A DNA stretch of 64,000 nt, taken from Diprion similis. Taxonomy: Eukaryota > Arthropoda > Insecta > Hymenoptera > Diprionidae. The position numbers and the translations under genes were made by a program. The notes beneath the pieces were generated by a model. That model did no database searches, had not been told where the DNA came from, and was given only the letters and a program-made list of their open reading frames with translations. The DNA is taken from NCBI RefSeq assembly GCF_021155765.1, contig NC_060106.1, positions 15,030,031 through 15,094,030 on the forward strand, in the 5' to 3' direction. Below, piece by piece: positions 31,201 through 57,900 of this stretch. Positions within the stretch are counted from its first letter, which is position 1, and each line of letters opens with the position of its first letter.

Positions 31201-32599
31201 TCCTATCCCGGATTCTACTGATCCTAGCCGTAAATCGGCGAGGCCAAGGTCTGGGCCAAATTACAACCATCAGAATCAGGCTTCACATGAAGAGTACGAC
31301 ACCAGGCGACCTCTTCCGCATAACAAGGGATTGACGTATTCTCACTTCGTTCCACCCCCGCAGCCAATTTCCTTGGTCGCGGTTCCTGGTTCGCAAGGCC
31401 CTCAGGATGACGAGGAGCGCCAGCAGATGATATTCCATTTGAATCTGTACCCCAAACGACGTAATAAAATAAACAGGTACTGATTAAAAACAACGTATAA
31501 TATTCTTTTCAAGCCGGGTTGAGTCTCTGTCATTCGGTAAGGTCAACGACAAATATAAGTTGACGGATTGCTTAATCAATCTTACACTTTGATTGACAGC
31601 TGTAGACACATATTAAGATTTAGAGTTAGACGGACGTTCCTGAGGTTTGACACGAGAACAAACTCACGCGCGAGGTCATCAAGATAAAACATTCCACGTG
31701 AATAATTTCCTTTCAATTATGTCGACACTACAGTTTTTTTTTTTTTTCTACACACATTTCTTAGTGAATCGGTATCTTCGATTACGCAAAGTAATTGATT
31801 GGAATGGTAGTGACCAAGTTCATAAATGCCCGTAGTCTTGAGATCATATGAAACTGAACTTAAAATGGTATTCAGAAGAAGCCTATTAAATTTATGCGTA
31901 GCTGCCAATTAATGCATGCGTAAATATTCCCTCCGGGGCCTCTTGTTATTTTAATCATTCCGTGTCTTCTTAAATTATGATTGTACACGATTAACGCGAG
32001 GCAGAGCCGTGTCCTTTGAGAATTAAATTTACACCATTATATGTATTATTCAATTCATCTTAATACTGTCCTTGGTGTATTGCAGGAATGACATAATCCC
32101 AAGATCTCAACGTACGGATCAAAGGAGCGAGGATTCCGTCGAGGAAAGCGTACCCCCGCCGTTTGACATCATTGCGAAACATTTGACCGATCACTCGGCA
32201 ATTCAAGCATCTAAATTTGAGGAGACTCAGCCTTCTGACAACGCTGATGCTTCTTCGATAGTTAATCGATACGAAGAAAGGGTTTTAGACAGAGGGAAAA
32301 AAGAAGAAGAAAGTTCATCTCACCGAGGAGGAGGTGCGAAAAAAGTTGGAAATACGAGATCGATTCCTGCCAATCATAGACCAGACTTTACGATTGAGAG
32401 TATTGCTGAAAAATTCTTAAACACGTCGAATGAAAACGTCGAGAACACATCGACGGAAACATGTGAAACTTTCAAGAACTTAGAGCCCACTAACGAAGAG
32501 TCAAAAGATGGTGAAACTGAAGAAACTGTAATATCCAAGGACATTGATACTGCGGAAGGATTTCAAAATTTTGCAGATGGCCTCTTAGCCACGGATTGA
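28215..32599 (+). CDS. Type II membrane protein of unknown function, about 650 aa, five exons
   Basis: The exons are 28215..28361, 29995..30428, 30545..30949, 31009..31476 and 32086..32599 (655 aa). Exon 4 can instead start at 31033, in frame, giving 647 aa. Junctions are phase 0, 2, 2 and 2, and every join restores an Arg or keeps the frame. A Ser/Arg-rich N-terminal tail of about 36 residues precedes a hydrophobic helix (about residues 37-55, YVIGIMVVLAIIL joined to VSFLFY across the first intron). There is no cleavable signal, so a signal-anchor with a lumenal or extracellular C-terminus is likely. The rest is polar and mostly disordered. Better-ordered islands are FSGVYVNPKKLEFYP, SADPFYQYKPKNPSDVNLL, and two similar short segments, FSVMLDIYPIPD and MIFHLNLYPKRRNK. 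The last exon is Glu/Ser/Thr-rich. I do not recognise a family. It converges with the cadherin gene. Confidence 0.8.
31009..31032 (+). other. Alternative 24-base exon extension (tandem acceptors)
   Basis: Two acceptors, TTTCGCAG ending at 31008 and TTTTCACAG ending at 31032, are 24 bases apart. Both keep the phase-2 codon (Arg) and the frame. Using the first adds eight residues (FPPSAFHR). The introns would be 59 or 83 bases. The sequence does not decide between them. Confidence 0.5.
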
Positions 32600-33567: not shown

Positions 33568-33573
33568 TTTATT
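33568..33573 (-). terminator. Polyadenylation signal (AATAAA on minus strand) of the cadherin gene
   Basis: TTTATT on the plus strand is AATAAA on the minus strand, about 130 bases past the cadherin stop at 33701-33703. A further candidate is at 33221-33226. Confidence 0.5.
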
Positions 33574-33700: not shown

Positions 33701-33911
33701 CTACGCTCTAGAGTTAAGTGTATTCGGATGATAGAGAGCGGCATCTGCTCCCCACTCGTAAGGCCCCTCGTGGGGACCCAGTGTGACCATGGTTCCTGGG
33801 CCCAAAGTTGTGTGGGACCCAGCATTGGTCATGCGTGGACCAGCCGAAACGTAGCTCAATGCTGGTCGCGGCTGTTCACGGAGGCGAGCGTGTTTCACAT
33901 GCTTCTTATAT
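33701..33911 (-). other. Last coding exon of the cadherin (cytoplasmic tail)
   Basis: On the minus strand TTGTTTTAG precedes one base (A) and then 70 codons ending in TAG. That base completes the AA left by the donor at 55184 to give a Lys codon. The translation continues YKKHVKHARLREQ, a basic juxtamembrane segment expected straight after the transmembrane helix. It then has a Gly/Pro/Thr-rich stretch and ends NTLNSRA. No other exon in the 21 kb between offers this phase and context. The link is inferred, not transcript-proven. Confidence 0.75.
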
Positions 33912-36900
33912 CTAAAACAAACGAATTGTGAGCATTGTTGTTCGGTTTTGCAATTGATTTAGAATATACGGTAGTAAAACTGATGTATTGGAATGATTAA
34001 ATATATAGTACGGAGGATATACACTCATTGTGCAATTCATAAGGTTTATCTGCTCTACATTTCACAACCGTATGAATATTGCGAAGTATGTCGTATACAA
34101 TATTTTGAATCATGAGGTAGGAGCTGAAGTTTTGAAATAGACGTGAAAATCAATACCTGAATGCATGAGGGAAAGAATAAATTGAATGACTGTCATATAT
34201 TGTCAGCATCAATGGTTATAAAACTTGAATAGGATTATTACCGCCTGTGTGTAACCCCCCCCCCCCCCCCCGCGCCGGCGCGCTGGAACGAACTATGAAA
34301 TAGATCATTTGTAGCAACTTTCGGTATCGTTTATTTTCAGCTTAGAGAATGCGGAGGGTATCGTTTATTTATGAGTATGGTTAACTTGATTTTTGAGTGA
34401 TTTTTGGGTCGGAAAAGTTCTCGTTTCAGATAAGGTGAGACGCACGGCAGAAAATTACAGATGAGCAACAAGCTGCGGAAAAATTAGAAAACAAGGTGTT
34501 TCGTTTTTCGGATGTAACTTTTGATGCGTTGCTCGCAGCTTATTGGGACTGCGCTCAATCGATTCCTCTCGCAAAATTACGTCGAGATAGTGCCTTACGG
34601 GATTGATTGCAGCGCTTTTCGAAATCGTCGAAATTTTCGCCAATAATCCAAAGGGGTTAGCCTTACTTTTTTGGTCATTTTTGAAGCCGAAAATCTTTTG
34701 TCTTGGATTCGATTTGCATGACCATTCCTAGAGTAATTCGACCCCAAGGAACTCAGAAAGCACGTGAAAAAGAGCGTCAGACCAACAGTGGAGAAATGAC
34801 GACGAAAATCTCTAGTTTTTTGGCTGTAACTTTTGATGCGTTGCTCGCAGCTTATTGGGACTGCGCTTAATCGATTCCTCTTGCAAAATTACGTCGGAAT
34901 AGGGCTTCACGGAATTGATTGCAGCGCTTTTCAAAATCGTCGAAATTTTCGCCAAAAATCCAAAGGGGTTAGCCTTGCTTTTTTGGTCATTTTTGAAGCC
35001 GAAAATCTTTTGTCTTGGAATCGAAATGCATGACCATTTCTAGAGTAATTCAACCCCAAGGAACTCAGAAAGCACGTGAAAAAAAGGGTCAGACCAACAG
35101 TGGAGAAATGACGACAAAAATCTCTAGTTTTTTGGCTGTAACTTTTGATGCGTTGCTCGCAGCTTATTGGGACTGCGCTTCATCGATTCCTCTTGCAAAA
35201 TTACGTCGGAATAGGGCTTCACGGAATTGATTGCAGCGCTTCTCAAAATCGGCGAAATTTTCGCCAAAAATCCAAAGGGGTTAGCCTTGCTTTTTTGGTC
35301 ATTTTTGAAGCCGAAAATCTTTTGTCTTGGAATCGATTTGCATGACCATTTCTAGAGTAATTCGACCCCAAGGAACTCAGAAAGCACGTAAAAAAGAGCG
35401 TCAGACCAACAGTGAAGAAATGACGACGAAAATCTCTAGTTTTTTGGCCGTAACTTTGGATGCGTTGCTCGCAGCTTCTTGGGACTGCGCTCAATCAATT
35501 CCTCTTGCAAAATTACGTCGGAATAGTGCCTCACGAAATTGATTGCAGCGCTTTCCAAAATCGTCGAAATTTTCGCCAAAAATCCAAAGGGGTTAGCCTT
35601 ACTTTTTTGGTCATTTTTGAAGCCGAAAATCTTTTGTCTTGAAATCGAAATGCATGACCATTTCTAGAGTAATTCGACCCCAAGGAACTCAGAAAGCACG
35701 TGAAAAAGAGCGTCAGACCAACAGTGGAGAAATGACGACGAAAATCTCTAGTTTTTCGGCTCTAACTTTTGATGCGTTGCTCGCAGCTTATTGGGACTGC
35801 GCTTGATCGATTCCTCTTGCAAAATTACGTCGGAATAGGGCTTCACGGAATTGATTGCGGCGCTTTTCAAAATCGTCGAAATTTTCGCCAAAAATCCAAA
35901 GGGGTTAGCCTTACTTTTTTGGTCATTTTTGAAGCCGAAAATCTTTTGTCTTGGAATCGATTTGCATGACCATTCCTAGAGTAATTCGACCCCAAGGAAC
36001 TCAGAAAGCACGTGAAAAAGAGCGTCAGACCAACAGTGGAGAAATGACGACGAAAATCTCTAGTTTTTTGGCTGTAACTTTTTTTGCGTTGCTCGCAGCT
36101 TATTGGGACTGCGCTTAATCGATTCCTCTTGCAAAATTACGTCGGAATAGGGCTTCACGGAATTGATTGCAGCGCTTTTCAAAATCGTCGAAATTTTCGC
36201 CAAAAATCCAAAGGGGTTAGCCTTGCTTTTTTGGTCATTTTTGAAGCCGAAAATCTTTTGTCTTGGAATCGATTTGCATGACCATTTCTAGAGTAATTCG
36301 ACCCCAAGGAACTCAGAAAGCACGTAAAAAAGAGCGTCAGACCAACAGTGGAGAAATGACGACGAAAATCTCTAGTTTTTTGGCTGTAACTTTTGATGCG
36401 TTGCTCGCAGCTTATTGGGACTGCGCTTAATCGATTCCTCTTGCAAAATTACGTCGGAATAGGGCTTCACGGAATTGATTGCAGCGCTTTTCAAAATCGT
36501 CGAAATTTTCGCCAAAAATCCAAAGGGGTTAGCCTTGCTTTTTTGGTCATTTTTGAAGCCGAAAATCTTTTGTCTTGGAATCGATTTGCATGACCATTTC
36601 TAGAGTAATTCGACCCCAAGGAACTCAGAAAGCACGTAAAAAAGAGCGTCAGACCAACAGTGAAGAAATGACGACGAAAATCTCTAGTTTTTTGGCCGTA
36701 ACTTTGGATGCGTTGCTCGCAGCTTCTTGGGACTGCGCTCAATCAATTCCTCTTGCAAAATTACGTCGGAATAGTGCCTCACGAAATTGGTTGCAGCGCT
36801 TTCCAAAATCGTCGAAATTTTCGCCAAAAATCCAAAGGGGTTAGCCTTACTTTTTTGGTCATTATTGAAGCCGAAAATCTTTTGTCTTGGAATCGATTTG

Positions 36901-39900
36901 CATGACCATTCCTAGAGTAATTCGACCCCAAGGAACTCAGAAAGCACGTCAAAAAGACCGTCAGACCAACAGTGGAGGAATGACGACGAAAATCCCTAGT
37001 TTTTTGGCTGTAACTTTTGATGCGTTGCTCGCAGCTTATTGGGACTGCGCTTGATCGATTCCTCTTGCAAAATTACGTCGGAATAGGGCTTCACGGAATT
37101 GATTGCGGCGCTTTTCAAAATCGTCGAAATTTTCGCCAAAAATCCAAAGGGGTTAGCCTTACTTTTTTGGTCATTTTTGAAGCCGAAAATCTTTTGTCTT
37201 GGAATCGATTTGCATGACCATTTCTAGAGTAATTCGACCCCAAGGAACTCAGAAAGCACGTGAAAAAGAGCGTCAGACCAACAGTGGAGAAATGACGACG
37301 AAAATCTCTAGTTTTTTGGCTGTAACTTTTTTTGCGTTGCTCGCAGCTTATTGGGACTGCGCTTAATCGATTCCTCTTGCAAAATTACGTCGAAATAGGG
37401 CTTCACGGAATTGATTGCAGCGCTTTTCAAAATCGTCGAAATTTTCGCCAAAAATCCAAAGGGGTTAGCCTTGCTTTTTTGGTCATTTTTGAAGCCGAAA
37501 ATCTTTTGTCTTGGAATCGATTTGCATGACCATTTCTAGAGTAATTCGACCCAAAGGAACTCAGAAAGCACGTAAAAAAGAGCGTCAGACCAACAGTGAA
37601 GAAATGACGACGAAAATCTCTAGTTTTTTGGCCGTAACTTTGGATGCGTTGCTCGCAGCTTCTTGGGACTGCGCTCAATCAATTCCTCTTGCAAAATTAC
37701 GTCGGAATAGTGCCTCACGAAATTGATTGCAGCGCTTTCCAAAATCGTCGAAATTTTCGCCAAAAATCCAAAGGGGTTAGCCTTACTTTTTTGGTCATTT
37801 TTGAAGCCGAAAATCTTTTGTCTTGGAATCGATTTGCATGACCATTTCTAGAGTAATTCGACCCCAAGGAACTCAGAAAGCACGTAAAAAAGAGCGTCAG
37901 ACCAACAGTGAAGAAATGACGACGAAAATCTCTAGTTTTTTGGCCGTAACTTTGGATGCGTTGCTCGCAGCTTCTTGGGACTGCGCTCAATCAATTCCTC
38001 TTGCAAAATTACGTCGGAATAGTGCCTCACGAAATTGATTGCAGCGCTTTCCAAAATCGTCGAAATTTTCGCCAAAAATCCAAAGGGGTTAGCCTTACTT
38101 TTTTGGTCATTTTTGAAGCCGAAAATCTTTTGTCTTGGAATCGAAACGCATGACCATTTCTAGAGTAATTCGACCCCAAGGAACTCAGAAAGCACGTGAA
38201 AAAGAGCGTCAGACCAACAGTGGAGAAATGACGACGAAAATCTCTAGTTTTTCGGCTGTAACTTTTGATGCGTTGCTCGCAGCTTATTGGGACTGCGCTT
38301 GATCGATTCCTCTTGCAAAATTACGTCGGAATAGGGCTTCACGGAATTGATTGCGGCGCTTTTCAAAATCGTCGAAATTTTCGCCAAAAATCCAAAGGGG
38401 TTAGCCTTACTTTTTTGGTCATTTTTGAAGCCGAAAATCTTTTGTCTTGGAATCGATTTGCATGACCATTCCTAGAGTAATTCGACCCCAAGGAACTCAG
38501 AAAGCACGTGAAAAAGAGCGTCAGACCAACAGTGGAGAAATGACGACGAAAATCTCTAGTTTTTTGGCTGTAACTTTTTTTGCGTTGCTCGCAGCTTATT
38601 GGGACTGCGCTTAATCGATTCCTCTTGCAAAATTACGTCGGAATAGGGCTTCACGGAATTGATTGCAGCGCTTTTCAAAATCGTCGAAATTTTCGCCAAA
38701 AATCCAAAGGGGTTAGCCTTGCTTTTTTGGTCATTTTTGAAGCCGAAAATCTTTTGTCTTGGAATCGATTTGCATGACCATTTCTAGAGTAATTCGACCC
38801 CAAGGAACTCAGAGAGCACGTAAAAAAGAGCGTCAGACCAACAGTGGAGAAATGACGACGAAAATCTCTAGTTTTTTGGCTGTAACTTTTGATGCGTTGC
38901 TCGCAGCTTATTGGGACTGCGCTTAATCGATTCCTCTTGCAAAATTACGTCGGAATAGGGCTTCACGGAATCGATTGCAGCGCTTTTCAAAATCGTCGAA
39001 ATTTTCGCCAAAAATCCAAAGGGGTTAGCCTTGCTTTTTTGGTCATTTTTGAAGCCGAAAATCTTTTGTCTTGGAATCGATTTGCATGACCATTTCTAGA
39101 GTAATTCGACCCCAAGGAACTCAGAAAGCACGTAAAAAAGAGCGTCAGACCAACAGTGAAGAAATGACGACGAAAATCTCTAGTTTTTTGGCCGTAACTT
39201 TGGATGCGTTGCTCGCAGCTTCTTGGGACTGCGCTCAATCCATTCCTCTTGCAAAATTACGTCGGAATAGTGCCTCACGAAATTGATTGCAGCGCTTTCC
39301 AAAATCGTCGAAATTTTCGCCAAAAATCCAAAGGGGTTAGCCTTACTTTTTTGGTCATTTTTGAAGCCGAAAATCTTTTGTCTTGGAATCGATTTGCATG
39401 ACCATTTCTAGAGTAATTCGACCCCAAGGAACTCAGAAAGCACGTAAAAAAGAGCGTCAGACCAACAGTGAAGAAATGACGACGAAAATCTCTAGTTTTT
39501 TGGCCGTAACTTTGGATGCGTTGCTCGCAGCTTCTTGGGACTGCGCTCAATCAATTCCTCTTGCAAAATTACGTCGGAATAGTGCCTCACGAAATTGATT
39601 GCAGCGCTTTCCAAAATCGTCGAAATTTTCGCCAAAAATCCAAAGGGGTTAGCCTTACTTTTTTGGTCATTTTTGAAGCCGAAAATCTTTTGTCTTGGAA
39701 TCGAAATGCATGACCATTTCTAGAGTAATTCGACCCCAAGGAACTCAGAAAGCACGTGAAAAAGAGCGTCAGACCAACAGTGGAGAAATGACGACGAAAA
39801 TCTCTAGTTTTTCGGCTGTAACTTTTGATGCGTTGCTCGCAGCTTCTTGGGACTGCGCTCAATCAATTCCTCTTGCAAAATTACGTCGGAATAGTGCCTC

Positions 39901-42900
39901 ACGAAATTGGTTGCAGCGCTTTCCAAAATCGTCGAAATTTTCGCCAAAAATCCAAAGGGGTTAGCCTTACTTTTTTGGTCATTATTGAAGCCGAAAATCT
40001 TTTGTCTTGGAATCGATTTGCATGACCATTCCTAGAGTAATTCGACCCCAAGGAACTCAGAAAGCACGTCAAAAAGACCGTCAGACCAACAGTGGAGGAA
40101 TGACGACGAAAATTCCTAGTTTTTTGGCTGTAACTTTTGATGCGTTGCTCGCAGCTTATTGGGACTGCGCTTGATCGATTCCTCTTGCAAAATTACGTCG
40201 GAATAGGGCTTCACGGAATTGATTGCGGCGCTTTTCAAAATCGTCGAAATTTTCGCCAAAAATCCAAAGGGGTTAGCCTTACTTTTTTGGTCATTTTTGA
40301 AGCCGAAAATCTTTTGTCTTGGAATCGATTTGCATGACCATTTCTAGAGTAATTCGACCCCAAGGAACTCAGAAAGCACGTGAAAAAGAGCGTCAGACCA
40401 ACAGTGGAGAAATGACGACGAAAATCTCTAGTTTTTTGGCTGTAACTTTTTTTGCGTTGCTCGCAGCTTATTGGGACTGCGCTTAATCGATTCCTCTTGC
40501 AAAATTACGTCGAAATAGGGCTTCACGGAATTGATTGCAGCGCTTTTCAAAATCGTCGAAATTTTCGCCAAAAATCCAAAGGGGTTAGCCTTGCTTTTTT
40601 GGTCATTTTTGAAGCCGAAAATCTTTTGTCTTGGAATCGATTTGCATGACCATTTCTAGAGTAATTCGACCCAAAGGAACTCAGAAAGCACGTAAAAAAG
40701 AGCGTCAGACCAACAGTGAAGAAATGACGACGAAAATCTCTAGTTTTTTGGCCGTAACTTTGGATGCGTTGCTCGCAGCTTCTTGGGACTGCGCTCAATC
40801 AATTCCTCTTGCAAAATTACGTCGGAATAGTGCCTCACGAAATTGATTGCAGCGCTTTCCAAAATCGTCGAAATTTTCGCCAAAAATCCAAAGGGGTTAG
40901 CCTTACTTTTTTGGTCATTTTTGAAGCCGAAAATCTTTTGTCTTGGAATCGATTTGCATGACCATTTCTAGAGTAATTCGACCCCAAGGAACTCAGAAAG
41001 CACGTAAAAAAGAGCGTCAGACCAACAGTGAAGAAATGACGACGAAAATCTCTAGTTTTTTGGCCGTAACTTTGGATGCGTTGCTCGCAGCTTCTTGGGA
41101 CTGCGCTCAATCAATTCCTCTTGCAAAATTACGTCGGAATAGTGCCTCACGAAATTGATTGCAGCGCTTTCCAAAATCGTCGAAATTTTCGCCAAAAATC
41201 CAAAGGGGTTAGCCTTACTTTTTTGGTCATTTTTGAAGCCGAAAATCTTTTGTCTTGGAATCGAAACGCATGACCATTTCTAGAGTAATTCGACCCCAAG
41301 GAACTCAGAAAGCACGTGAAAAAGAGCGTCAGACCAACAGTGGAGAAATGACGACGAAAATCTCTAGTTTTTCGGCTGTAACTTTTGATGCGTTGCTCGC
41401 AGCTTATTGGGACTGCGCTTGATCGATTCCTCTTGCAAAATTACGTCGGAATAGGGCTTCACGGAATTGATTGCGGCGCTTTTCAAAATCGTCGAAATTT
41501 TCGCCAAAAATCCAAAGGGGTTAGCCTTACTTTTTTGGTCATTTTTGAAGCCGAAAATCTTTTGTCTTGGAATCGATTTGCATGACCATTCCTAGAGTAA
41601 TTCGACCCCAAGGAACTCAGAAAGCACGTGAAAAAGAGCGTCAGACCAACAGTGGAGAAATGACGACGAAAATCTCTAGTTTTTTGGCTGTAACTTTTTT
41701 TGCGTTGCTCGCAGCTTATTGGGACTGCGCTTAATCGATTCCTCTTGCAAAATTACGTCGGAATAGGGCTTCACGGAATTGATTGCAGCGCTTTTCAAAA
41801 TCGTCGAAATTTTCGCCAAAAATCCAAAGGGGTTAGCCTTGCTTTTTTGGTCATTTTTGAAGCCGAAAATCTTTTGTCTTGGAATCGATTTGCATGACCA
41901 TTTCTAGAGTAATTCGACCCCAAGGAACTCAGAGAGCACGTAAAAAAGAGCGTCAGACCAACAGTGGAGAAATGACGACGAAAATCTCTAGTTTTTTGGC
42001 TGTAACTTTTGATGCGTTGCTCGCAGCTTATTGGGACTGCGCTTAATCGATTCCTCTTGCAAAATTACGTCGGAATAGGGCTTCACGGAATCGATTGCAG
42101 CGCTTTTCAAAATCGTCGAAATTTTCGCCAAAAATCCAAAGGGGTTAGCCTTGCTTTTTTGGTCATTTTTGAAGCCGAAAATCTTTTGTCTTGGAATCGA
42201 TTTGCATGACCATTTCTAGAGTAATTCGACCCCAAGGAACTCAGAAAGCACGTAAAAAAGAGCGTCAGACCAACAGTGAAGAAATGACGACGAAAATCTC
42301 TAGTTTTTTGGCCGTAACTTTGGATGCGTTGCTCGCAGCTTCTTGGGACTGCGCTCAATCCATTCCTCTTGCAAAATTACGTCGGAATAGTGCCTCACGA
42401 AATTGATTGCAGCGCTTTCCAAAATCGTCGAAATTTTCGCCAAAAATCCAAAGGGGTTAGCCTTACTTTTTTGGTCATTTTTGAAGCCGAAAATCTTTTG
42501 TCTTGGAATCGATTTGCATGACCATTTCTAGAGTAATTCGACCCCAAGGAACTCAGAAAGCACGTAAAAAAGAGCGTCAGACCAACAGTGAAGAAATGAC
42601 GACGAAAATCTCTAGTTTTTTGGCCGTAACTTTGGATGCGTTGCTCGCAGCTTCTTGGGACTGCGCTCAATCAATTCCTCTTGCAAAATTACGTCGGAAT
42701 AGTGCCTCACGAAATTGATTGCAGCGCTTTCCAAAATCGTCGAAATTTTCGCCAAAAATCCAAAGGGGTTAGCCTTACTTTTTTGGTCATTTTTGAAGCC
42801 GAAAATCTTTTGTCTTGGAATCGAAATGCATGACCATTTCTAGAGTAATTCGACCCCAAGGAACTCAGAAAGCACGTGAAAAAGAGCGTCAGACCAACAG

Positions 42901-45900
42901 TGGAGAAATGACGACGAAAATCTCTAGTTTTTCGGCTGTAACTTTTGATGCGTTGCTCGCAGCTTATTGGGACTGCGCTTGATCGATTCCTCTTGCAAAA
43001 TTACGTCGGAATAGGGCTTCACGGAATTGATTGCGGCGCTTTTCAAAATCGTCGAAATTTTCGCCAAAAATCCAAAGGGGTTAGCCTTACTTTTTTGGTC
43101 ATTTTTGAAGCCGAAAATCTTTTGTCTTGGAATCGATTTGCATGACCATTCCTAGAGTAATTCGACCCCAAGGAACTCAGAAAGCACGTGAAAAAGAGCG
43201 TCAGACCAACAGTGGAGAAATGACGACGAAAATCTCTAGTTTTTTGGCTGTAACTTTTTTTGCGTTGCTCGCAGCTTATTGGGACTGCGCTTAATCGATT
43301 CCTCTTGCAAAATTACGTCGGAATAGGGCTTCACGGAATTGATTGCAGCGCTTTTCAAAATCGTCGAAATTTTCGCCAAAAATCCAAAGGGGTTAGCCTT
43401 GCTTTTTTGGTCATTTTTGAAGCCGAAAATCTTTTGTCTTGGAATCGATTTGCATGACCATTTCTAGAGTAATTCGACCCCAAGGAACTCAGAGAGCACG
43501 TAAAAAAGAGCGTCAGACCAACAGTGGAGAAATGACGACGAAAATCTCTAGTTTTTTGGCTGTAACTTTTGATGCGTTGCTCGCAGCTTATTGGGACTGC
43601 GCTCAATCGATTCCTCTTGCAAAATTACGTCGGAATAGGGCTTCACGGAATTGATTGCAGCGCTTTTCAAAATCGTCAAAATTTTCGCCAAAAATCCAAA
43701 GGGGTTAGCCTTGCTTTTTTGGTCATTTTTGAAGCCGAAAATCTTTTGTCTTGGAATCGATTTGCATGACCATTTCTAGAGTAATTCGACCCCAAGGAAC
43801 TCAGAGAGCACGTAAAAAAGAGCGTCAGACCAACAGTGGAGAAATGACGACGAAAATCTCTAGTTTTTTGGCTGTAACTTTTGATGCGTTGCTCGCAGCT
43901 TATTGGGACTGCGCTTAATCGATTCCTCTTGCAAAATTACGTCGGAATAGGGCTTCACGGAATTGATTGCGGCGCTTTTCAAAATCGTCGAAATTTTCGC
44001 CAAAAATCCAAAGGGGTTAGCCTTACTTTTTTGGTCATTTTTGAAGCCGAAAATCTTTTGTCTTGGAATCGATTTGCATGACCATTTCTAGAGTAATTCG
44101 ACCCCAAGGAACTCAGAAAGCACGTGAAAAAGAGCGTCAGACCAACAGTGGAGAAATGACGACGAAAATCTCTAGTTTTTTGGCTGTAACTTTTTTTGCG
44201 TTGCTCGCAGCTTATTGGGACTGCGCTTAATCGATTCCTCTTGCAAAATTACGTCGAAATAGGGCTTCACGGAATTGATTGCAGCGCTTTTCAAAATCGT
44301 CGAAATTTTCGCCAAAAATCCAAAGGGGTTAGCCTTGCTTTTTTGGTCATTTTTGAAGCCGAAAATCTTTTGTCTTGGAATCGATTTGCATGACCATTTC
44401 TAGAGTAATTCGACCCCAAGGAACTCAGAAAGCACGTAAAAAAGAGCGTCAGACCAACAGTGAAGAAATGACGACGAAAATCTCTAGTTTTTTGGCCGTA
44501 ACTTTGGATGCGTTGCTCGCAGCTTCTTGGGACTGCGCTCAATCAATTCCTCTTGCAAAATTACGTCGGAATAGTGCCTCACGAAATTGATTGCAGCGCT
44601 TTCCAAAATCGTCGAAATTTTCGCCAAAAATCCAAAGGGGTTAGCCTTACTTTTTTGGTCATTTTTGAAGCCGAAAATCTTTTGTCTTGGAATCGATTTG
44701 CATGACCATTTCTAGAGTAATTCGACCCCAAGGAACTCAGAAAGCACGTGAAAAAGAGCGTCAGACCAACAGTGGAGAAATGACGACGAAAATCTCTAGT
44801 TTTTTGGCTGTAACTTTTTTTGCGTTGCTCGCAGCTTATTGGGACTGCGCTTAATCGATTCCTCTTGCAAAATTACGTCGGAATAGGGCTTCACGGAATT
44901 GATTGCAGCGCTTTTCAAAATCGTCGAAATTTTCGCCAAAAATCCAAAGGGGTTAGCCTTGCTTTTTTGGTCATTTTTGAAGCCGAAAATCTTTTGTCTT
45001 GGAATCGATTTGCATGACCATTTCTAGAGTAATTCGACCCCAAGGAACTCAGAAAGCACGTGAAAAAGAGCGTCAGACCAACAGTGGAGAAATGACGACG
45101 AAAATCTCTAGTTTTTCGGCTGTAACTTTTGATGCGTTGCTCGCAGCTTATTGGGACTGCGCTTGATCGATTCCTCTTGCAAAATTACGTCGGAATAGGG
45201 CTTCACGGAATTGATTGCGGCGCTTTTCAAAATCGTCGAAATTTTCGCCAAAAATCCAAAGGGGTTAGCCTTACTTTTTTGGTCATTTTTGAAGCCGAAA
45301 ATCTTTTGTCTTGGAATCGATTTGCATGACCATTCCTAGAGTAATTCGACCCCAAGGAACTCAGAAAGCACGTGAAAAAGAGCGTCAGACCAACAGTGGA
45401 GAAATGACGACGAAAATCTCTAGTTTTTTGGCTGTAACTTTTTTTGCGTTGCTCGCAGCTTATTGGGACTGCGCTTAATCGATTCCTCTTGCAAAATTAC
45501 GTCGGAATAGGGCTTCACGGAATTGATTGCAGCGCTTTTCAAAATCGTCGAAATTTTCGCCAAAAATCCAAAGGGGTTAGCCTTGCTTTTTTGGTCATTG
45601 TTGAAGCCGAAAATCTTTTGTCTTGGAATCGATTTGCATGACCATTTCTAGAGTAATTCGACCCCAAGGAACTCAGAAAGCACGTAAAAAAGAGCGTCAG
45701 ACCAACAGTGGAGAAATGACGACGAAAATCTCTAGTTTTTTGGCTGTAACTTTTGATGCGTTGCTCGCAGCTTATTGGGACTGCGCTTAATCGATTCCTC
45801 TTGCAAAATTACGTCGGAATAGGGCTTCACGGAATCGATTGCAGCGCTTTTCAAAATCGTCGAAATTTTCGCCAAAAATCCAAAGGGGTTAGCCTTGCTT

Positions 45901-48900
45901 TTTTGGTCATTTTTGAAGCCGAAAATCTTTTGTCTTGGAATCGATTTGCATGACCATTTCTAGAGTAATTCGACCCCAAGGAACTCAGAAAGCACGTAAA
46001 AAAGAGCGTCAGACCAACAGTGAAGAAATGACGACGAAAATCTCTAGTTTTTTGGCCGTAACTTTGGATGCGTTGCTCGCAGCTTCTTGGGACTGCGCTC
46101 AATCAATTCCTCTTGCAAAATTACGTCGGAATAGTGCCTCACGAAATTGATTGCAGCGCTTTCCAAAATCGTCGAAATTTTCGCCAAAAATCCAAAGGGG
46201 TTAGCCTTACTTTTTTGGTCATTTTTTAAGCCGAAAATCTTTTGTCTTGGAATCGAAATGCATGACCATTTCTAGAGTAATTCGACCCCAAGGAACTCAG
46301 AAAGCACGTGAAAAAGAGCGTCAGACCAACAGTGGAGAAATGACGACGAAAATCTCTAGTTTTTCGGCTGTAACTTTTGATGCGTTGCTCGCAGCTTATT
46401 GGGACTGCGCTTGATCGATTCCTCTTGCAAAATTACGTCGGAATAGGGCTTCACGGAATTGATTGCGGCGCTTTTCAAAATCGTCGAAATTTTCGCCAAA
46501 AATCCAAAGGGGTTAGCCTTACTTTTTTGGTCATTTTTGAAGCCGAAAATCTTTTGTCTTGGAATCGATTTGCATGACCATTCCTAGAGTAATTCGACCC
46601 CAAGGAACTCAGAAAGCACGTGAAAAAGAGCGTCAGACCAACAGTGGAGAAATGACGACGAAAATCTCTAGTTTTTTGGCTGTAACTTTTTTTGCGTTGC
46701 TCGCAGCTTATTGGGACTGCGCTTAATCGATTCCTCTTGCAAAATTACGTCGGAATAGGGCTTCACGGAATTGATTGCAGCGCTTTTCAAAATCGTCGAA
46801 ATTTTCGCCAAAAATCCAAAGGGGTTAGCCTTGCTTTTTTGGTCATTTTTGAAGCCGAAAATCTTTTGTCTTGGAATCGATTTGCATGACCATTTCTAGA
46901 GTAATTCGACCCCAAGGAACTCAGAGAGCACGTAAAAAAGAGCGTCAGACCAACAGTGGAGAAATGACGACGAAAATCTCTAGTTTTTTGGCTGTAACTT
47001 TTGATGCGTTGCTCGCAGCTTATTGGGACTGCGCTTAATCGATTCCTCTTGCAAAATTACGTCGGAATAGGGCTTCACGGAATCGATTGCAGCGCTTTTC
47101 AAAATCGTCGAAATTTTCGCCAAAAATCCAAAGGGGTTAGCCTTGCTTTTTTGGTCATTTTTGAAGCCGAAAATCTTTTGTCTTGGAATCGATTTGCATG
47201 ACCATTTCTAGAGTAATTCGACCCCAAGGAACTCAGAAAGCACGTAAAAAAGAGCGTCAGACCAACAGTGAAGAAATGACGACGAAAATCTCTAGTTTTT
47301 TGGCCGTAACTTTGGATGCGTTGCTCGCAGCTTCTTGGGACTGCGCTCAATCAATTCCTCTTGCAAAATTACGTCGGAATAGTGCCTGACGAAATTGATT
47401 GCAGCGCTTTCCAAAATCGTCGAAATTTTCGCCAAAAATCCAAAGGGGTTAGCCTTACTTTTTTGGTCATTTTTGAAGCCGAAAATCTTTTGTCTTGGAA
47501 TCGATTTGCATGACCATTTCTAGAGTAATTCGACCCCAAGAAACTCAGAAAGCACGTAAAAAAGAGCGTCAGACCAACAGTGAAGAAATGACGACGAAAA
47601 TCTCTAGTTTTTTGGCCGTAACTTTGGATGCGTTGCTCGCAGCTTCTTGGGACTGCGCTCAATCAATTCCTCTTGCAAAATTACGTCGGAATAGTGCCTC
47701 ACGAAATTGATTGCAGCGCTTTCCAAAATCGTCGAAATTTTCGCCAAAAATCCAAAGGGGTTAGCCTTACTTTTTTGGTCATTTTTGAAGCCGAAAATCT
47801 TTTGTCTTGGAATCGAAATGCATGACCATTTCTAGAGTAATTCGACCCCAAGGAACTCAGAAAGCACGTGAAAAAGAGCGTCAGACCAACAGTGGAGAAA
47901 TGACGACGAAAATCTCTAGTTTTTCGGCTGTAACTTTTGATGCGTTGCTCGCAGCTTATTGGGACTGCGCTTGATCGATTCCTCTTGCAAAATTACGTCG
48001 GAATAGGGCTTCACGGAATTGATTGCGGCGCTTTTCAAAATCGTCGAAATTTTCGCCAAAAATCCAAAGGGGTTAGCCTTACTTTTTTGGTCATTTTTGA
48101 AGCCGAAAATCTTTTGTCTTGGAATCGATTTGCATGACCATTCCTAGAGTAATTCGACCCCAAGGAACTCAGAGAGCACGTAAAAAAGAGCGTCAGACCA
48201 ACAGTGGAGAAATGACGACGAAAATCTCTAGTTTTTTGGCTGTAACTTTTGATGCGTTGCTCGCAGCTTATTGGGACTGCGCTCAATCGATTCCTCTTGC
48301 AAAATTACGTCGGAATAGGGCTTCACGGAATTGATTGCAGCGCTTTTCAAAATCGTCAAAATTTTCGCCAAAAATCCAAAGGGGTTAGCCTTGCTTTTTT
48401 GGTCATTTTTGAAGCCGAAAATCTTTTGTCTTGGAATCGATTTGCATGACCATTTCTAGAGTAATTCGACCCCAAGGAACTCAGAGAGCACGTAAAAAAG
48501 AGCGTCAGACCAACAGTGGAGAAATGACGACGAAAATCTCTAGTTTTTTGGCTGTAACTTTTGATGCGTTGCTCGCAGCTTATTGGGACTGCGCTTAATC
48601 GATTCCTCTTGCAAAATTACGTCGGAATAGGGCTTCACGGAATCGATTGCAGCGCTTTTCAAAATCGTCGAAATTTTCGCCAAAAATCCAAGGGGTTAGC
48701 CTTGCTTTTTTGGTCATTTTTGAAGCCGAAAATCTTTTGTCTTGGAATCGATTTGCATGACCATTTCTAGAGTAATTCGACCCCAAGGAACTCAGAAAGC
48801 ACGTAAAAAAGAGCGTCAGACCAACAGTGGAGAAATGACGACGAAAATCTCTAGTTTTTTGGCCGTAACTTTGGATGCGTTGCTCGCAGCTTCTTGGGAC

Positions 48901-51900
48901 TGCGCTCAATCAATTCCTCTTGCAAAATTACGTCGGAATAGTGCCTCACGAAATTGATTGCAGCGCTTTCCAAAATCGTCGAAATTTTCGCCAAAAATCC
49001 AAAGGGGTTAGCCTTACTTTTTTGGTCATTTTTGAAGCCGAAAATCTTTTGTCTTGGAATCGATTTGCATGACCATTTCTAGAGTAATTCGACCCCAAGG
49101 AACTCAGAAAGCACGTGAAAAAGAGCGTCAGACCAACAGTGGAGAAATGACGACGAAAATCTCTAGTTTTTTGGCTGTAACTTTTGATGCGTTGCTCGCA
49201 GCTTATTGGGACTCCGCTCAATCGATTCCTCTTGCAAAATTACGTCGGAATAGGGCTTCACGGAATTGATTGCAGCGCTTTTCAAAATCGTCAAAATTTT
49301 CGCCAAAAATCCAAAGGGGTTAGCCTTGCTTTTTTGGTCATTTTTGAAGCCGAAAATCTTTTGTCTTGGAATCGATTTGCATGACCATTTCTAGAGTAAT
49401 TCGACCCCAAGGAACTCAGAAAGCACGTGAAAAAGAGCGTCAGACCAACAGTGGAGAAATGACGACGAAAATCTCTAGTTTTTTGGCTGTAACTTTTGAT
49501 GCGTTGCTCGCAGCTTATTGGGACTGCGCTTAATCGATTCCTCTTGCAAAATTACGTCGGAATAGGGCTTCACGGAATTGATTGCAGCGCTTCTCAAAAT
49601 CGGCGAAATTTTCGCCAAAAATCCAAAGGGGTTAGCCTTGCTTTTTTGGTCATTTTTGAAGCCGAAAATCTTTTGTCTTGGAATCGATTTGCATGACCAT
49701 TTCTAGAGTAATTCGACCCCAAGGAACTCAGAAAGCACGTGAAAAAGAGCGTCAGACCAACAGTGGAGAAATGACGACGAAAATCTCTAGTTTTTCGGCT
49801 GTAACTTTTGATGCGTTGCTCGCAGCTTATTGGGACTGCGCTTGATCGATTCCTCTTGCAAAATTACGTCGGAATAGTGCCTCACGAAATTGATTGCAGC
49901 GCTTTCCAAAATCGTCGAAATTTTCGCCAAAAATCCAAAGGGGTTAGCCTTACTTTTTTGGTCATTTTTGAAGCCGAAAATCTTTTGTCTTGGAATCGAT
50001 TTGCATGACCATTTCTAGAGTAATTCGACCCCAAGGAACTCAGAAAGCACGTGAAAAAGAGCGTCAGACCAACAGTGGAGAAATGACGACGAAAATCTCT
50101 AGTTTTTTGGCTGTAACTTTTGATGCGTTGCTCGCAGCTTATTGGGACTTCGCTCAATCGATTCCTCTTGCAAAATTACGTCGGAATAGGGCTTCACGGA
50201 ATTGATTGCAGCGCTTTTCAAAATCGTCAAAATTTTCGCCAAAAATCCAAAGGGGTTAGCCTTGCTTTTTTGGTCATTTTTGAAGCCGAAAATCTTTTGT
50301 CTTGGAATCGATTTGCATGACCATTTCTAGAGTAATTCGACCCCAAGGAACTCAGAAAGCACGTGAAAAAGAGCGTCAGACCAACAGTGGAGAAATGACG
50401 ACGAAAATCTCTAGTTTTTTGGCTGTAACTTTTGATGCGTTGCTCGCAGCTTATTGGGACTGCGCTTAATCGATTCCTCTTGCAAAATTACGTCGGAATA
50501 GGGCTTCACGGAATTGATTGCAGCGCTTCTCAAAATCGGCGAAATTTTCGCCAAAAATCCAAAGGGGTTAGCCTTGCTTTTTTGGTCATTTTTGAAGCCG
50601 AAAATCTTTTGTCTTGGAATCGATTTGCATGACCATTTCTAGAGTAATTCGACCCCAAGGAACTCAGAAAGCACGTGAAAAAGAGCGTCAGACCAACAGT
50701 GGAGAAATGACGACGAAAATCTCTAGTTTTTCGGCTGTAACTTTTGATGCGTTGCTCGCAGCTTATTGGGACTGCGCTTGATCGATTCCTCTTGCAAAAT
50801 TACGTCGGAATAGGGCTTCACGGAATTGATTGCGGCGCTTTTCAAAATCGTCGAAATTTTCGCCAAAAATCCAAAGGGGTTAGCCTTACTTTTTTGGTCA
50901 TTTTTGAAGCCGAAAATCTTTTGTCTTGGAATCGATTTGCATGACCATTTCTAGAGTAATTCGACCCCAAGGAACTCAGAAAGCACGTGAAAAAGAGCGT
51001 CAGACCAACAGTGGAGAAATGACGACGAAAATCTCTAGTTTTTTGGCTGTAACTTTTTTTGCGTTGCTCGCAGCTTATTGGGACTGCGCTTAATCGATTC
51101 CTCTTGCAAAATTACGTCGGAATAGGGCTTCACGGAATTGATTGCAGCGCTTTTCAAAATCGTCGAAATTTTCGCCAAAAATCCAAAGGGGTTAGCCTTG
51201 CTTTTTTGGTCATTTTTGAAGCCGAAAATCTTTTGTCTTGGAATCGATTTGCATGACCATTTCTAGAGTAATTCGACCCCAAGGAACTCAGAAAGCACGT
51301 AAAAAAGAGCGTCAGACCAACAGTGGAGAAATGACGACGAAAATCTCTAGTTTTTTGGCTGTAACTTTTGATGCGTTGCTCGCAGCTTATTGGGACTGCG
51401 CTTAATCGATTCCTCTTGCAAAATTACGTCGGAATAGGGCTTCACGGAATCGATTGCAGCGCTTTTCAAAATCTTCGAAATTTTCGCCAAAAATCCAAAG
51501 GGGTTAGCCTTGCTTTTTTGGTCATTTTTGAAGCCGAAAATCTTTTGTCTTGGAATCGATTTGCATGACCATTTCTAGAGTAATTCGACCCCAAGGAACT
51601 CAGAACGCACGTGAAAAAGAGCGTCAGACCAACAGTGGAGAAATGACGACGAAAATCTCTAGTTTTTTGGCCGTAACTTTTGATGCGTTGCTCGCAGCTT
51701 ATTGGGACTGCGCCCAATCGATTCCTCTTGCAAAATTACGTCGGAATAGTGCCTTACGGAATTGATTGCAGCGCTTTTCAAAATCGTCGATATTTTCGCC
51801 AAAAATCCAAAGGGGTTAGCCTTACTTTTTAGGTCATTTTTGAAGCCGAAAATCTTTCGTCTTGGAATCGATTTGCATGACCATTCCTAGAGTAATTCGA

Positions 51901-54900
51901 CCCCAAGGAACTCAGAAAGCACGTCAAAAAGACCGTCAGACCAACAGTGGAGGAATGACGACGAAAATCTCTAGTTTTTTGGCTGTAACTTTTGATGCGT
52001 TGCTCGCAGCTTATTGGGACTGCGCTCAATCGATTCCTCTTGCAAAATTACGTCGGAATAGTGCCTTACGAAATTGATTGCAGCGCTTACCAAAATCGTC
52101 GAAATTTTCGCCAAAAATCCAAAGGGGTTAGCCTTCCTTTTTTGGTCATTTTCGAAGCCGAAAATCTTTTGTCTTGGAATCGAAATGCATGACCATTTCT
52201 AGAGTAATTCGACCCCAAGGAACTCAGAAAGCACGTGAAAAAGAGCGTCAGACCAACAGTGGAGAAATGACGACGAAAATCCCTAGTTTTTCGGCTGTAA
52301 CTTTTGATGCGTTGCTCGCAGCTTATTGGGACTGCGCTTGATCGATTCCTCTTGCAAAATTACGTCGGAAAAGGGCTTCACGGAATTGATTGCGGCGCTT
52401 TTCAAAATCGTCGAAATTTTCGCCAAAAATCCAAAGGGGTTAGCCTTACTTTTTTGGTCATTTTCGAAGCCGAAAATCTTTTGTCTTGGAATCGATTTGC
52501 ATGACCATTTCTAGAGTAATTCGACCCCAAGGAACTCAGAAAGCACGTAAAAAAGAGCGTCAGACCAACAGTGGATAGATGACGACGAAAATCTCTAGTT
52601 TTTTGGCTGTAACTTTTGATGCGATGCTCGCAGCTTATTGGGACTGCGCTCAATCGATTTCTCTTGCAAAATTACGTCGGAATAGTGCCTTACGAAATTG
52701 ATTGCAGCGCTTTCCAAAATCGTCGAAATTTTCGCCAAAAATCCAATGGGACTAGCCTTACTTTTTTGGACATTTTTGAAGCCGAAAATCTTTTGTCTTG
52801 GAATCGATTTGCATGACCATTTCTAGAGTAATTCGACCCCAAGGAACTCAGAAAGCACGTAAAAAAGAGCGTCAGACCAACAGTGGAGAAATGACGACGA
52901 AAATCTCTATTTTTCTGGCTGTCACTTTTGATGCGTTGCTCGCAGCTTCTTGGGACTGCGCTAAATCGATTCCTCTTGCAAAATTACGTCGGAATAGTGC
53001 CTTATGGAATTGATTGCAGCGCTTTCCAAAATCGTCGAAATTTTCGCCAAAAATACAAAGGGGTTAGCCTTACATTTTGGGTCATTTTTGGAGCCGAAAA
53101 TTCATATCACTCAACACTTAGCGGGGAAAACGGCTAAAGAAATACGAGCACATACTCATTCATTTATTTGTCGTCATCCAGGTTACAGAAAATAAATGGA
53201 ATTTAATATTATTATTTATACCTTGTCATTCATGTAACAAAGAATTGTAACACCGAAATATCATACAGAATACATCGTGTCCTGCGGCGGTGCCTTGTGC
53301 TTGTATGCAAGCCGGAATTTACACCATATCCACCAACTACAACAATGACGATCTGATTTCAATTCTGTCACATTCTGCTGGTGATAATGTTTATTGCACT
53401 TTTTTGTGTTCTCATAACCTGTATGATCACATACTGTTCAAGCATACTCTTGCATTTTCATTCTGTCTTTCATTTTATACTATTTGGAACTTGTCAAATT
53501 ACAATACACTGACACCCAAGCACTTGTTCTAGAATTAAGACATGTTGAATAAACGAAACTAGGTTTTTTTTCAATTTGTGATTTTTAATTTCCACCTTCT
53601 TCCAAACCCCGTGAAAGTTTTATGTATTCTTGCTCCAACTTCCAATCCGTTGCTCGCAGCGTATTTTGACTGCGTGCAATTGATCACTTCCGCAAAATTA
53701 CGTCGGAGTCGTGCAGAAAATAATCGTTCGTAGCATTTTCCAAATTAGCCGGCATTTCCACCAAAAATTTAAAGGGATTAGCTCAAGTTTTTTTTGGGCG
53801 GAAAAACCTTCTTTTCCGAAATCGAGTTGTACGTCTCTCTATAGACTAATTAGACTCTCAGGAACGCAGAAAACACCCCAAAAAGTATGTCAGACTAACA
53901 GCAGAGAAAATATGAAGAAAATCTCTTGTTCATCTGTCACTTATTCTTGATTCCTTACTCGAAGTGTATTCGACTACGGACAATTGATCCACGTTGCAAA
54001 ATTACGTCAATATTGTGCATGAAAAAATTGATTTTATTTTCATTCCAAATCGTCGAAATTTTTAGAGAAATCTGAAGCCTTTCTCCTCATCTGGAAACAT
54101 TTTTCCGTTTCAGAATCAAATTGTTTCACCCTTCCTAGACTGCTTAGACCCCCAGGATTTCGAAAGGGACCTCACGATCCCCGTAGGTCTAATAGCTGAG
54201 AAAATCGAGAAACATAGTGGCAAATTTTCTCGGTTTGTGTTATTACTTTTGAGTCGTTGCCCATACTAAATCAGAGCAATGTGCAATTTTACTTCCTCAC
54301 GAACTTGCGGTTCTTGGTACATCGTTGGCATAATCTAATTCCAGCGCTTTCAACGACGCTGCGTTTTTCTGGTCAAAAGCGCTGCAGTATCTCCGACTTC
54401 CCATCGATCGGATTTGACTACTCATCCGTGTCAGTAATATTCGGGTGTCTAAATTGGGTAACCACGGCTCCTCAACATGGGTAGGAGTACTTCGTCTTGG
54501 AAGTATTCTGTACAATGTTTGTCTATAAATTTTTCCGGTTTAAAGATTGAGTGACGAGTTATAGACAAACGTGTATCTCTTTTTTATATGGGGCTTAGAG
54601 TACAAAGAGAGATCACATACTCCTTTCTTTTTCTATGCTGGCTCGTCTACTTGCTAGATTACACGGTTGAGGGAAGTTATTTTTTTCTCAAGAAGAAAGT
54701 TACAAGTGGGTATCTAAAAAGGAAACATTGGAGGGAACGCTGGAAATCGCGTTTTTCATGCCCGTCATTTGGTTGCAAGTTCCTGTGAGTTTCAGATTCT
54801 CTCATCCAGCCGTATTCAAGATCATTACGGGAGTTCATAGTACAGACCGAAAAATCTATATCCAAACCCTCATTCCTCTAGAAAGCTGTTCTTCATATTC

Positions 54901-57900
54901 TATAGACCCGAAACCGAAATGATTCGTTAAAATTATAAAAATTAATTTTCTGCCGATACCAATGCTATTCTCATATCACCAAAGCTAATGGAAAGTAAAA
55001 ATGACGTTGAATTCATTCGAATAATAAGTTTCGTGCATTTGCAGAAGATTGCATTGTTACTTCGAAGCTTGAGGTACCTATCTAAGATTGTAAGTCTCAA
55101 ACGAAAGTTCTTGACTCATGTTTTCTTATTTCCACTTTGTACTAACGCGATGTAAAATGTTAATTCAAAAGTAATTTTACTCACTTTGCGTGCATGCAGC
55201 AGAGCGTACAGCTGGAAATAATCGCAGCGATCCCGACCAGAGCAGCGATGGCAAGTACCCACATCTGTGTCATAGAGGCATCGGCCCTTGCAACGAGAGC
55301 AGCACAGTGCTGAACCGTGCCAACGTTATACTGCTGATATACCCGCTTTAATTCCTCGTTTTTAGGGTCTGTTAACAAGGCTTTCATTTCGTTGAGATCA
55401 TAGGACTCCCTTCCAACCATTTGGAAGCATGAACTGGTCGACGAAAAGTCCAAGGAATTGTCTTCCTTCGAATAAAACTGTGTGTCGTAGACGTTAACCT
55501 CGACGGGAAGCGACAAGGCTTGTTGTACGGCCTGCTCAAAATTCTCCAACGATTTTCTCACCTCGGCTGGAGGCTTGGAGAAGACGAACTTAAGCATGTC
55601 TCGATCTCGTACTAGGAAAATCTTCACTGTGATGTTCGTCTCTCGTCCTGGCGTCGCAGAATTATTTGCCGATATTGGAACCTCCATGAAACCATCGGCG
55701 AATCCTGTCATTGAACTGGTTGTCCTTAGCTCTCCAGTTTCCGGGTTTAACGAAAAAACAGAGGTCATTTTCTCCCGAGATATCGATGGATCAACCACCG
55801 AAGTAAAAGACACGTCACCCATATTGTAGTTCATCGGCAAGGCGTCCGAATCTGCGTCCTTAGCTTCCAACGTCAAAAGGCTGGTATCAATTGGTACATT
55901 CAGTCGAACTCCCAGCGTGAAATTCCCCTTTTTAAACTTAGGTTTGTTATCATCAATATCCAATATCCTTATCAAGACTTGCCGCTCCGAAGGATCTTGC
56001 CGATTGTACGGCTTGGGTGTGAGCTCCGATTTTTTTACTGGAAACTTGAAGCACTTCACGGTGATAAGATGACGGTCGAATTGTTCACGATCCAATCGCC
56101 CTGTCGATTTTATTATACCAGAATTATTTTCGGATCTTTCTATAGAAAACAGGCCCGCTTCGTTTCCGTATATAATTACGTAATCGATCATCCCGTTCTC
56201 CTCGATGTCTTCGTCAATCGCTTCGACGACTCCGATATTTGTTCCGATTGGAAGTTCCTCATAAGTGCTTAGTTCCACGGGCGGACTGTCTAGGCTTCGC
56301 TTGAAGTGTGGCTTATGGTCATCAATATCGTCTACGATCACTTGAAGAATACGAGTCGCTTGCTGGGGGGGATCTCCAAGATCCTGAGCTACGAGGATCA
56401 GCGTGTAGCTGTCTTTGGTTTCACGGTCTAACAGTTTTTTCGTCGTTATTAACCCAGTCTCACTGTTAATGCTGAACGAACTTGCGTCGTTTCCGAAATT
56501 TCCCTCCTCAAGAAACTTGAAGGTTATCTTCCCGTTCGGTAAATTTGGATCATCTGGATCGGAAGCAACGACTTGAAAGACCGGGCTTCCGGTTGTCGAG
56601 TTCTCCGCGATGTGAGCTACCTCGTCCAGAGTTGGCCTGATGATAAGGGGAACACCGTCATTGCTGACAACGTCACCAATGTAAAGAACCAATGCAACGT
56701 CCGTAAAAAGGACAGGATCTCCTCCATCCTGAGCCCTGACACGCATGTTGTAAGGTTCCGTCCTTCCTTTGCCAGTCAGTTGCCCAGCAGAAGAGACTTC
56801 GCCAGTAGAGTGATTTATTTTGAAGAGACCTGTGCCGCATGATCACAAGACGTTAACAGTACTAGTAGCAAATCCAACTAATCAGTGCTCCAATAAACAC
56901 CTCGAATAAAATAATATCTACCATTAGCTTCTCCCTCGTCAATAATTTCAAAGTGAATCGTTCCTCCTTTGCCCTCGTCGGGATCAATTGCAGTAATGTT
57001 TACAACACTGATGCCTGCCGGTGCATTTTCAGGAACCACAGCAGTGTAAGACTCCTGAGGGAAGGCGGGGGCGTTGTCGTTCACATCTAGAATATCGACG
57101 GTAACTAATGCTCGACTCATTTTCTGCTCCGCACCACCCTGAGGCATATCTGTAGCGATAACGTAGAATCGCAGAACGGATTGTCTTTCTCGGTCAAGTG
57201 TTGTATTTGCTGCGATCTATGACAAGAATTGATTATCACAACAAGAAAACAGCCGATATTTTGACTACTGCGGTAAAGAAAATTGAAATCTAAACTATAC
57301 TTACGAGAATGTTTCCACTGATTGGATCGATTTCAAACAAATTTGCATTTTCACCGGTCAAAGCGTATCTGACTTCACCGAATCCTCTCTTCACTTCCTG
57401 ATCCGTATTCGAGCTGTCCATATCCGTAGCCTTGACATTTAGGATAATTTTAGATGCCGCGGACGATTCGAGTACGGAAATTTTATAATCTTTTTGATTG
57501 AAAATCGGGCTGTTGTCATTTATGTCGAGCACTGACACTATCACCTTAGCTTCCGACATGCTTCGACTTATTTCGTAATCTCTGGCCAAGGCTCGAACTT
57601 TGAAGCGAAGAATCTGATAAAAAAAATGACAAATTGATCACTTCTTTCATCCAAATAATGACGAACACATCGAAAACCATTTTTGGGTTGTACCTTGTCG
57701 CCTAGATTTTCATAATCCAGTCTCTTGCTCAAAACTACGTTCCCGCTTTGAACCCCAACGTTAACGTAACCTTCATCATCGTCATCGCGAATCAATTCGA
57801 ACGTTTCAACTGGTCGACCAGTCGCTGGTTCCCTGGCAGACAGCATCAGCAGAGTCGTTCCAACCGGTTGCTCTTCAGGAACTGACACGCGAATGACCGG

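Follow-up and report, generated by a model that had tools for sequence, protein, structure and literature searches.

A long satellite block of a dispersed family in the last intron of a predicted cadherin gene of Diprion similis

Introduction

Satellite repeats lying among genes, and within them, have been described in Drosophila and in Tribolium. According to PMC7642928, the 1.688 satellite of Drosophila is found in euchromatin, near genes and in introns, those of NetA/NetB included, with 572 intronic insertions across five species. In Tribolium castaneum, TCAST satellite-like repeats are reported across euchromatin and over-represented in introns (PMC5844308). Euchromatic satellites of Drosophila are characterized in a review as dispersed short arrays (PMC10048060), satellite- or transposon-bearing introns have been compared among Drosophila species (PMC7919458), and transcription of satellite introns has been described for kl-3 and kl-5 on the Drosophila Y (PMC6508621). 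The subject of this analysis is a 64,000-nucleotide stretch of the genome of Diprion similis (Hymenoptera, Diprionidae; NC_060106.1, positions 15,030,031 to 15,094,030), referred to as the window and numbered from its first letter, in which an 18.6-kb array of a 312-bp satellite lies in the last intron of a predicted cadherin gene. The favored reading, to which a probability of about 0.72 is attached, is that this array is a block of a dispersed satellite family that an intact cadherin gene carries in its last intron, a passenger that would be transcribed and spliced out.

Compared by mode of distribution only, the Diprion family is like 1.688 in being dispersed through gene-rich parts, near genes and, at this locus, in an intron, and like TCAST in the spread of satellite-like repeats among genes. 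The organization of its arrays is another matter: repeats of the same 1.688 array are described as mostly not clustering together (PMC7642928), and euchromatic TCAST copies as mostly single, without clustering by place (PMC5844308), whereas the Diprion array is an 18.6-kb block that constitutes a private clade, and the arrays of its family are long and locally homogenized. With kl-3 and kl-5 the cadherin gene shares the property of being a coding gene with a mostly satellite intron that has to be transcribed; those introns, however, are described as megabases of simple satellite served by dedicated RNA-binding proteins in spermatocytes (PMC6508621). The cadherin intron, in contrast, holds 18.6 kb of complex satellite and, at 21,273 bp overall, is not of the megabase order that intron gigantism of the kl-3/kl-5 type implies. 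The cadherin case is long and homogeneous for the intronic array of a compact gene, yet it is of the same kind as those already known.

The cadherin gene and its satellite intron

The gene lies on the minus strand, from 61777 to 33701, and has 13 exons. Its splice sites were picked by eye, after which a script checked GT-AG borders, phases and open frame. All 12 introns are GT-AG with agreeing phases, and the joined exons (5529 nt) encode 1842 residues and a stop, with no internal stops. The first 12 exons, each with GT-AG, matching phase and an open frame, are as follows.

61777-61480, minus strand, cadherin exon 1
61170-60899, minus strand, cadherin exon 2
60810-60646, minus strand, cadherin exon 3
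60521-60083, minus strand, cadherin exon 4
59961-59720, minus strand, cadherin exon 5
59602-59078, minus strand, cadherin exon 6
59005-58653, minus strand, cadherin exon 7
58545-58331, minus strand, cadherin exon 8
58253-57694, minus strand, cadherin exon 9
57613-57305, minus strand, cadherin exon 10
57216-56922, minus strand, cadherin exon 11
56829-55185, minus strand, cadherin exon 12

The predicted protein is a member of the cadherin superfamily, with tandem repeats (the Pfam Cadherin family, PF00028, in 12 stretches, 5.1e-159), a membrane helix (residues 1749-1767, the most hydrophobic stretch, directly ahead of the exon 12/13 junction) and a cytoplasmic tail, the last by gene model only. 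With the whole protein as query at E 0.001, six families are listed, and the Pfam cytoplasmic region of classical (catenin-binding) cadherins is not one of them. The protein may resemble insect Cad87A. Exon 12 ends at 55185 in phase 2, on AA/GTGAGT. The original prediction had 12 exons ending at this position and phase, after a transmembrane helix and on a GTGAGT donor, and the script check and the hydrophobicity profile bear it out in each particular.

Introns 1-11 measure 72-309 bp, in contrast to the 21,273 bp of intron 12, a length that had been predicted to the base. The parts of intron 12 are listed here.

33912-55184, minus strand, intron 12, 21,273 bp, starting GTGAGT and ending TTTTAG
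34503-53101, minus strand, homogeneous array of the 312-bp satellite, 59.6 copies, by Tandem Repeats Finder (TRF) and monomer analysis
36995-42965, no strand assigned, recent internal duplication, 36995-39845 being identical (2851 bp) to 40115-42965, ten units apart
53105-53660, no strand assigned, segment that contains a dispersed repeat and parts the array from the decayed units
53624-54062, minus strand, decayed units of the satellite family, oriented as in the array, ~68% identity (blastn with the monomer consensus)
54752-55003, no strand assigned, another dispersed repeat, with matches elsewhere of ~67-84%

The array occupies 18,599 bp, or 87% of the intron, and is a head-to-tail tandem of homogeneous units. 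TRF reports a period of 312, 59.6 copies and 96% matches (score 34209); landmarks in the repeat recur every 312 bases exactly, save for one of the 58 spacings, which is 311; and pairs among the 58 window monomers average 0.967 identity. These figures confirm the 18.6-kb array of some 60 copies of a 312-bp unit that had been predicted for the last intron. The exact repeat of 2851 bp, found in a scan of lags close to multiples of 312 for runs of at least 900 bp, points to recent unequal exchange, and for the same reason the assembled length of the array may be off. The remainder of the intron consists of 2,083 bp of decayed satellite units and dispersed repeats on the exon-12 side, and of 591 bp on the tail side, where the flank matches the genome once. 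Of 81 candidate matches to the stretch at 53105-53660, 40 were scored, and matches to part of it, at 66-85%, were obtained at no fewer than 39 further genomic sites. Decayed edges together with a homogeneous core would be expected of an array that has long resided in one place. Also within intron 12, a run of ~18 G in a GC-rich context, at about 34253-34285, is possibly length-variable or error-prone.

The tail exon

The coding sequence is completed on the far side of the array.

33701-33911, minus strand, exon 13, comprising the final base of a Lys codon, a 69-residue cytoplasmic tail and a stop
33568-33573, minus strand, AATAAA, likely polyadenylation (poly(A)) signal starting 128 bp beyond the stop codon, by consensus match only

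Candidate terminal exons were collected at all AG acceptors from 55184 to 32600 that are followed by an open frame in compatible phase for 20 residues or more (n=908), and were scored with codon preferences and acceptors taken from the same cadherin gene. The exon at 33911-33701 ranks first among the 908, with a total of 11.4 against 7.6 for the second; its coding score is 12.8 (the best other non-overlapping candidates shown reach 8.5 and 7.4), and in a six-frame test the expected frame is the sole one above zero. Phase, open join and rank support, at the level of genomic sequence, the pairing with exon 12 that had been proposed, and the search for an alternative last exon that had been suggested alongside it returned this same exon at the top. 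The exon has a single match in the genome. Five of the first 12 residues of the tail, which follows the membrane helix, are Lys or Arg. The tail alone matches no Pfam family at E 0.01, and its three matches to solved structures are at chance level (E 1.1 or more). The adjoining open frame, 32027-32599, sits on the opposite strand, which is consistent with convergent 3' ends.

A family dispersed among genes

The 269-Mb assembly, in 60 contigs with the window on contig C2, was searched with a 33-base piece of the monomer at up to 3 mismatches. The search found 19,905 matches (10,435 + 9,470); the same pattern reversed, as a control, found none. Taking one 312-bp unit per match, the family makes up about 2.3% of the genome, some 6.2 Mb, an estimate that misses diverged units and would overcount lone fragments. 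Its many separate loci, defined by a distance of 100 kb or more, number at least 26 and are spread over 11 contigs (C1-C4, C6-C11, C13), with the window included and with one locus (C3 at 12.43 Mb) resting on a single listed pattern match. The locus counts are lower bounds, 21 of 2736, 8 of 2323 and 37 of 2389 candidates having been scored; the window array itself is not among the matches of the set in which 21 of 2736 were scored.

Nine sister arrays were fetched in part, eight of them with some flanking sequence (at C4 and C7, one flank only is satellite-free); the ninth piece, from C13, is all satellite. Recognizable coding exons lie 0.9-4.4 kb from five of the eight arrays with fetched flanks, in a scan against Pfam that covered these five (the other three being both C2 arrays and C10). 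The five flanking genes encode Sec61-alpha (SecY family), an Ost5 subunit, a homeodomain protein, an ankyrin protein and a SUN-domain protein. At Sec61-alpha, a single side of the C8 array (23.9 Mb) holds the coding start, at a distance of 0.9 kb. The SUN-domain gene adjoins the C7 array, and the ankyrin gene, which we take to be TRP-like, adjoins the C8 array at 8.1 Mb; the 5' ends of these two genes were not located in the fetched flanks. Both halves of the C4 homeodomain lie on one side of the array, one as a half-domain of 22.0 bits, just under the Pfam cut-off of 22.9, and the second matched separately; the gene is presumably of the POU type.

Judged from the assembly, the family is a dispersed, gene-proximal satellite, and because it lies among genes, the presence of one block inside an intron is no paradox. 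The original prediction had presented the locus as a satellite of heterochromatic type within a gene. The placement stands; the oddity is weakened by the 19,905 matches and by the coding exons near five of eight sister arrays.

Three sister arrays have features of their own. The array at C2:15528603-15559908, ~0.45 Mb away from the window, has spacings of 342 bp next to ones of 312-313 bp, which may reflect a mixed or higher-order unit. In C8:8078345-8094687 the landmark is also spaced 129 and 183 apart (ten each), which suggests a rearranged unit. The 21-kb array that begins at C8:23895853 adjoins the promoter side of Sec61-alpha, a housekeeping gene, whose putative first coding exon has 7 bases (L016 4941-4947, C8:23894940-23894946).

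Local homogenization

A midpoint-rooted tree was made of 342 monomers from eight arrays, taking units of 296-329 bp between landmarks; split units were left out (20 intervals of 129 or 183 in array C8a, 4 of 133 in C8b), and C10 contributed 2 monomers. All 58 window monomers fall in one clade (support 0.998), and five of the six other long arrays are also clades (support 0.744-1.0); C8b is not a clade under midpoint rooting, and the position of the root may be the cause. Identity in sampled pairs from the seven long arrays is 0.950-0.979 within arrays and 0.859-0.913 between them; for the window monomers, 0.967 among themselves compares with 0.863-0.875 to the other seven arrays. The excess of identity within arrays and the array-specific clades together indicate that homogenization is mostly local. 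Local homogenization, combined with the exact internal duplication, makes the length of the array probably variable.

Signals on the transcribed strand

Effects of the array on splicing, transcription time or tail choice had been raised as possibilities; the sequence lends them no support here. Over 18.6 kb, the sense strand of the array lacks every member of a set of 12 common poly(A) hexamers, as well as GTAAGT/GTGAGT donors and polypyrimidine-YAG acceptors. Between exon 12 and the array, AATAAA or ATTAAA occurs five times against a chance expectation of 4.6, so that the check for intronic polyadenylation just left of 55184 that had been called for ended at chance level. At an elongation rate of ~1.5 kb per minute, transit through the array would add about 12 minutes.

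Depletion of poly(A) signals by selection was considered and rejected, the effective sample being close to one founder monomer. The monomer and not the array is the sample, and the missing signals are therefore within chance: in simulation, neither strong signal occurs in 68% of 312-mers. Among 68 distinct variants in the window, one makes a hexamer of the 12-member set (2.3 expected) and none makes a strong signal (0.5 expected). Elsewhere in the family, the C3 array is without a strong signal on either strand, and some arrays carry AATAAA by the dozens (54 in C13, 23 in C4).

Other features of the window

A very proline-rich open frame of 1000 residues lies at 24123-27125 on the plus strand. 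Inside it, at 25322-26352, is a coding minisatellite with a 36-bp unit (28.6 copies, 95% matches).

Alternative explanations

Several facts weigh against an intact gene with a passenger array. The acceptor at 33911 scores -1.4, the lowest in the gene, whose 11 other acceptors range from -0.6 to 9.6; the 55185-33911 junction is a prediction from genomic sequence; the sense strand of the array has 38 GTAAG pentamers, which are possible weak donors; and a search of the flanks of some sister arrays found no other intronic array. The weak acceptor, and a tail with neither a Pfam relative nor a structural match above chance, would suit a gene in which exon 12 joins another terminal exon (34282-34216, 21 aa, with an acceptor plus coding score of 7.6, or 54507-54297, 69 aa, with 4.9) or in which 33911-33701 belongs to some other gene. 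This is made decidedly improbable by the leading total and coding scores of the tail exon, by its single positive frame, and by the Lys/Arg-rich start of the tail following the membrane helix. Moreover, the open frames listed for the same strand include nothing else between the two exons that is cadherin-like or long and coding: the single frame of at least 100 aa falls within the array itself. That the array has been misplaced, or given the wrong length, by the assembly is extremely improbable. The exact 2851-bp repeat could collapse or expand during assembly, but the flanking exons retain order, strand and phase, the tail-side flank has one genome match and the window contains no N, points that bear on the position of the array and not on its exact length.

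The functional alternatives concern what the intron might do. It could be a tail switch, with intronic polyadenylation ahead of the array generating a tail-less cadherin and slow transit favoring the short form. The first in-frame stop past exon 12 lies within its own donor (AAG TGA), so premature polyadenylation would yield a tail-less membrane protein; the five signals that precede the array, with none inside it, fit the same scheme. A phase-2 AA/GTGA donor makes such a stop automatically, however, and both the number of signals before the array and their absence within it are matters of chance, which leaves the switch quite unlikely. That satellite copy number sets the frequency of tail-less cadherin is very improbable; if it were true, array length, stepping by whole units, would act as a heritable control of receptor form. 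A cis regulatory or chromatin role of the array in tuning this cadherin, of the sort proposed for some euchromatic satellites of Drosophila and Tribolium, is unlikely. Gene-modulatory roles are indeed put forward in that literature (PMC7642928, PMC5844308), and sister arrays do sit near genes, but no signature of constraint was found here: the array-private sequence and the recent duplication resemble free turnover.

A probable passenger array and what it may be used to test

The block of a dispersed family, carried as a passenger in the last intron, can be given a plausible history. A few satellite units would have arrived long ago; a later dispersed repeat would have severed the units at the edge, which then decayed; and the remaining units would have kept expanding and homogenizing in situ through unequal exchange. 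RNA polymerase would pass through 21 kb and the array would be removed within an ordinary intron, which would leave its length fairly free to vary. Most likely a passenger, the array would at most slow production of the transcript modestly.

The locus shows, in assembled form, a satellite block that is both long and homogeneous, lies in an otherwise compact and intact gene, and belongs to a family that is present at many loci. It allows the satellite load that a transcription unit tolerates to be tested, and likewise whether private homogenization varies the length of the intron among individuals, and in so doing shifts the ratio of full to tail-less receptor.

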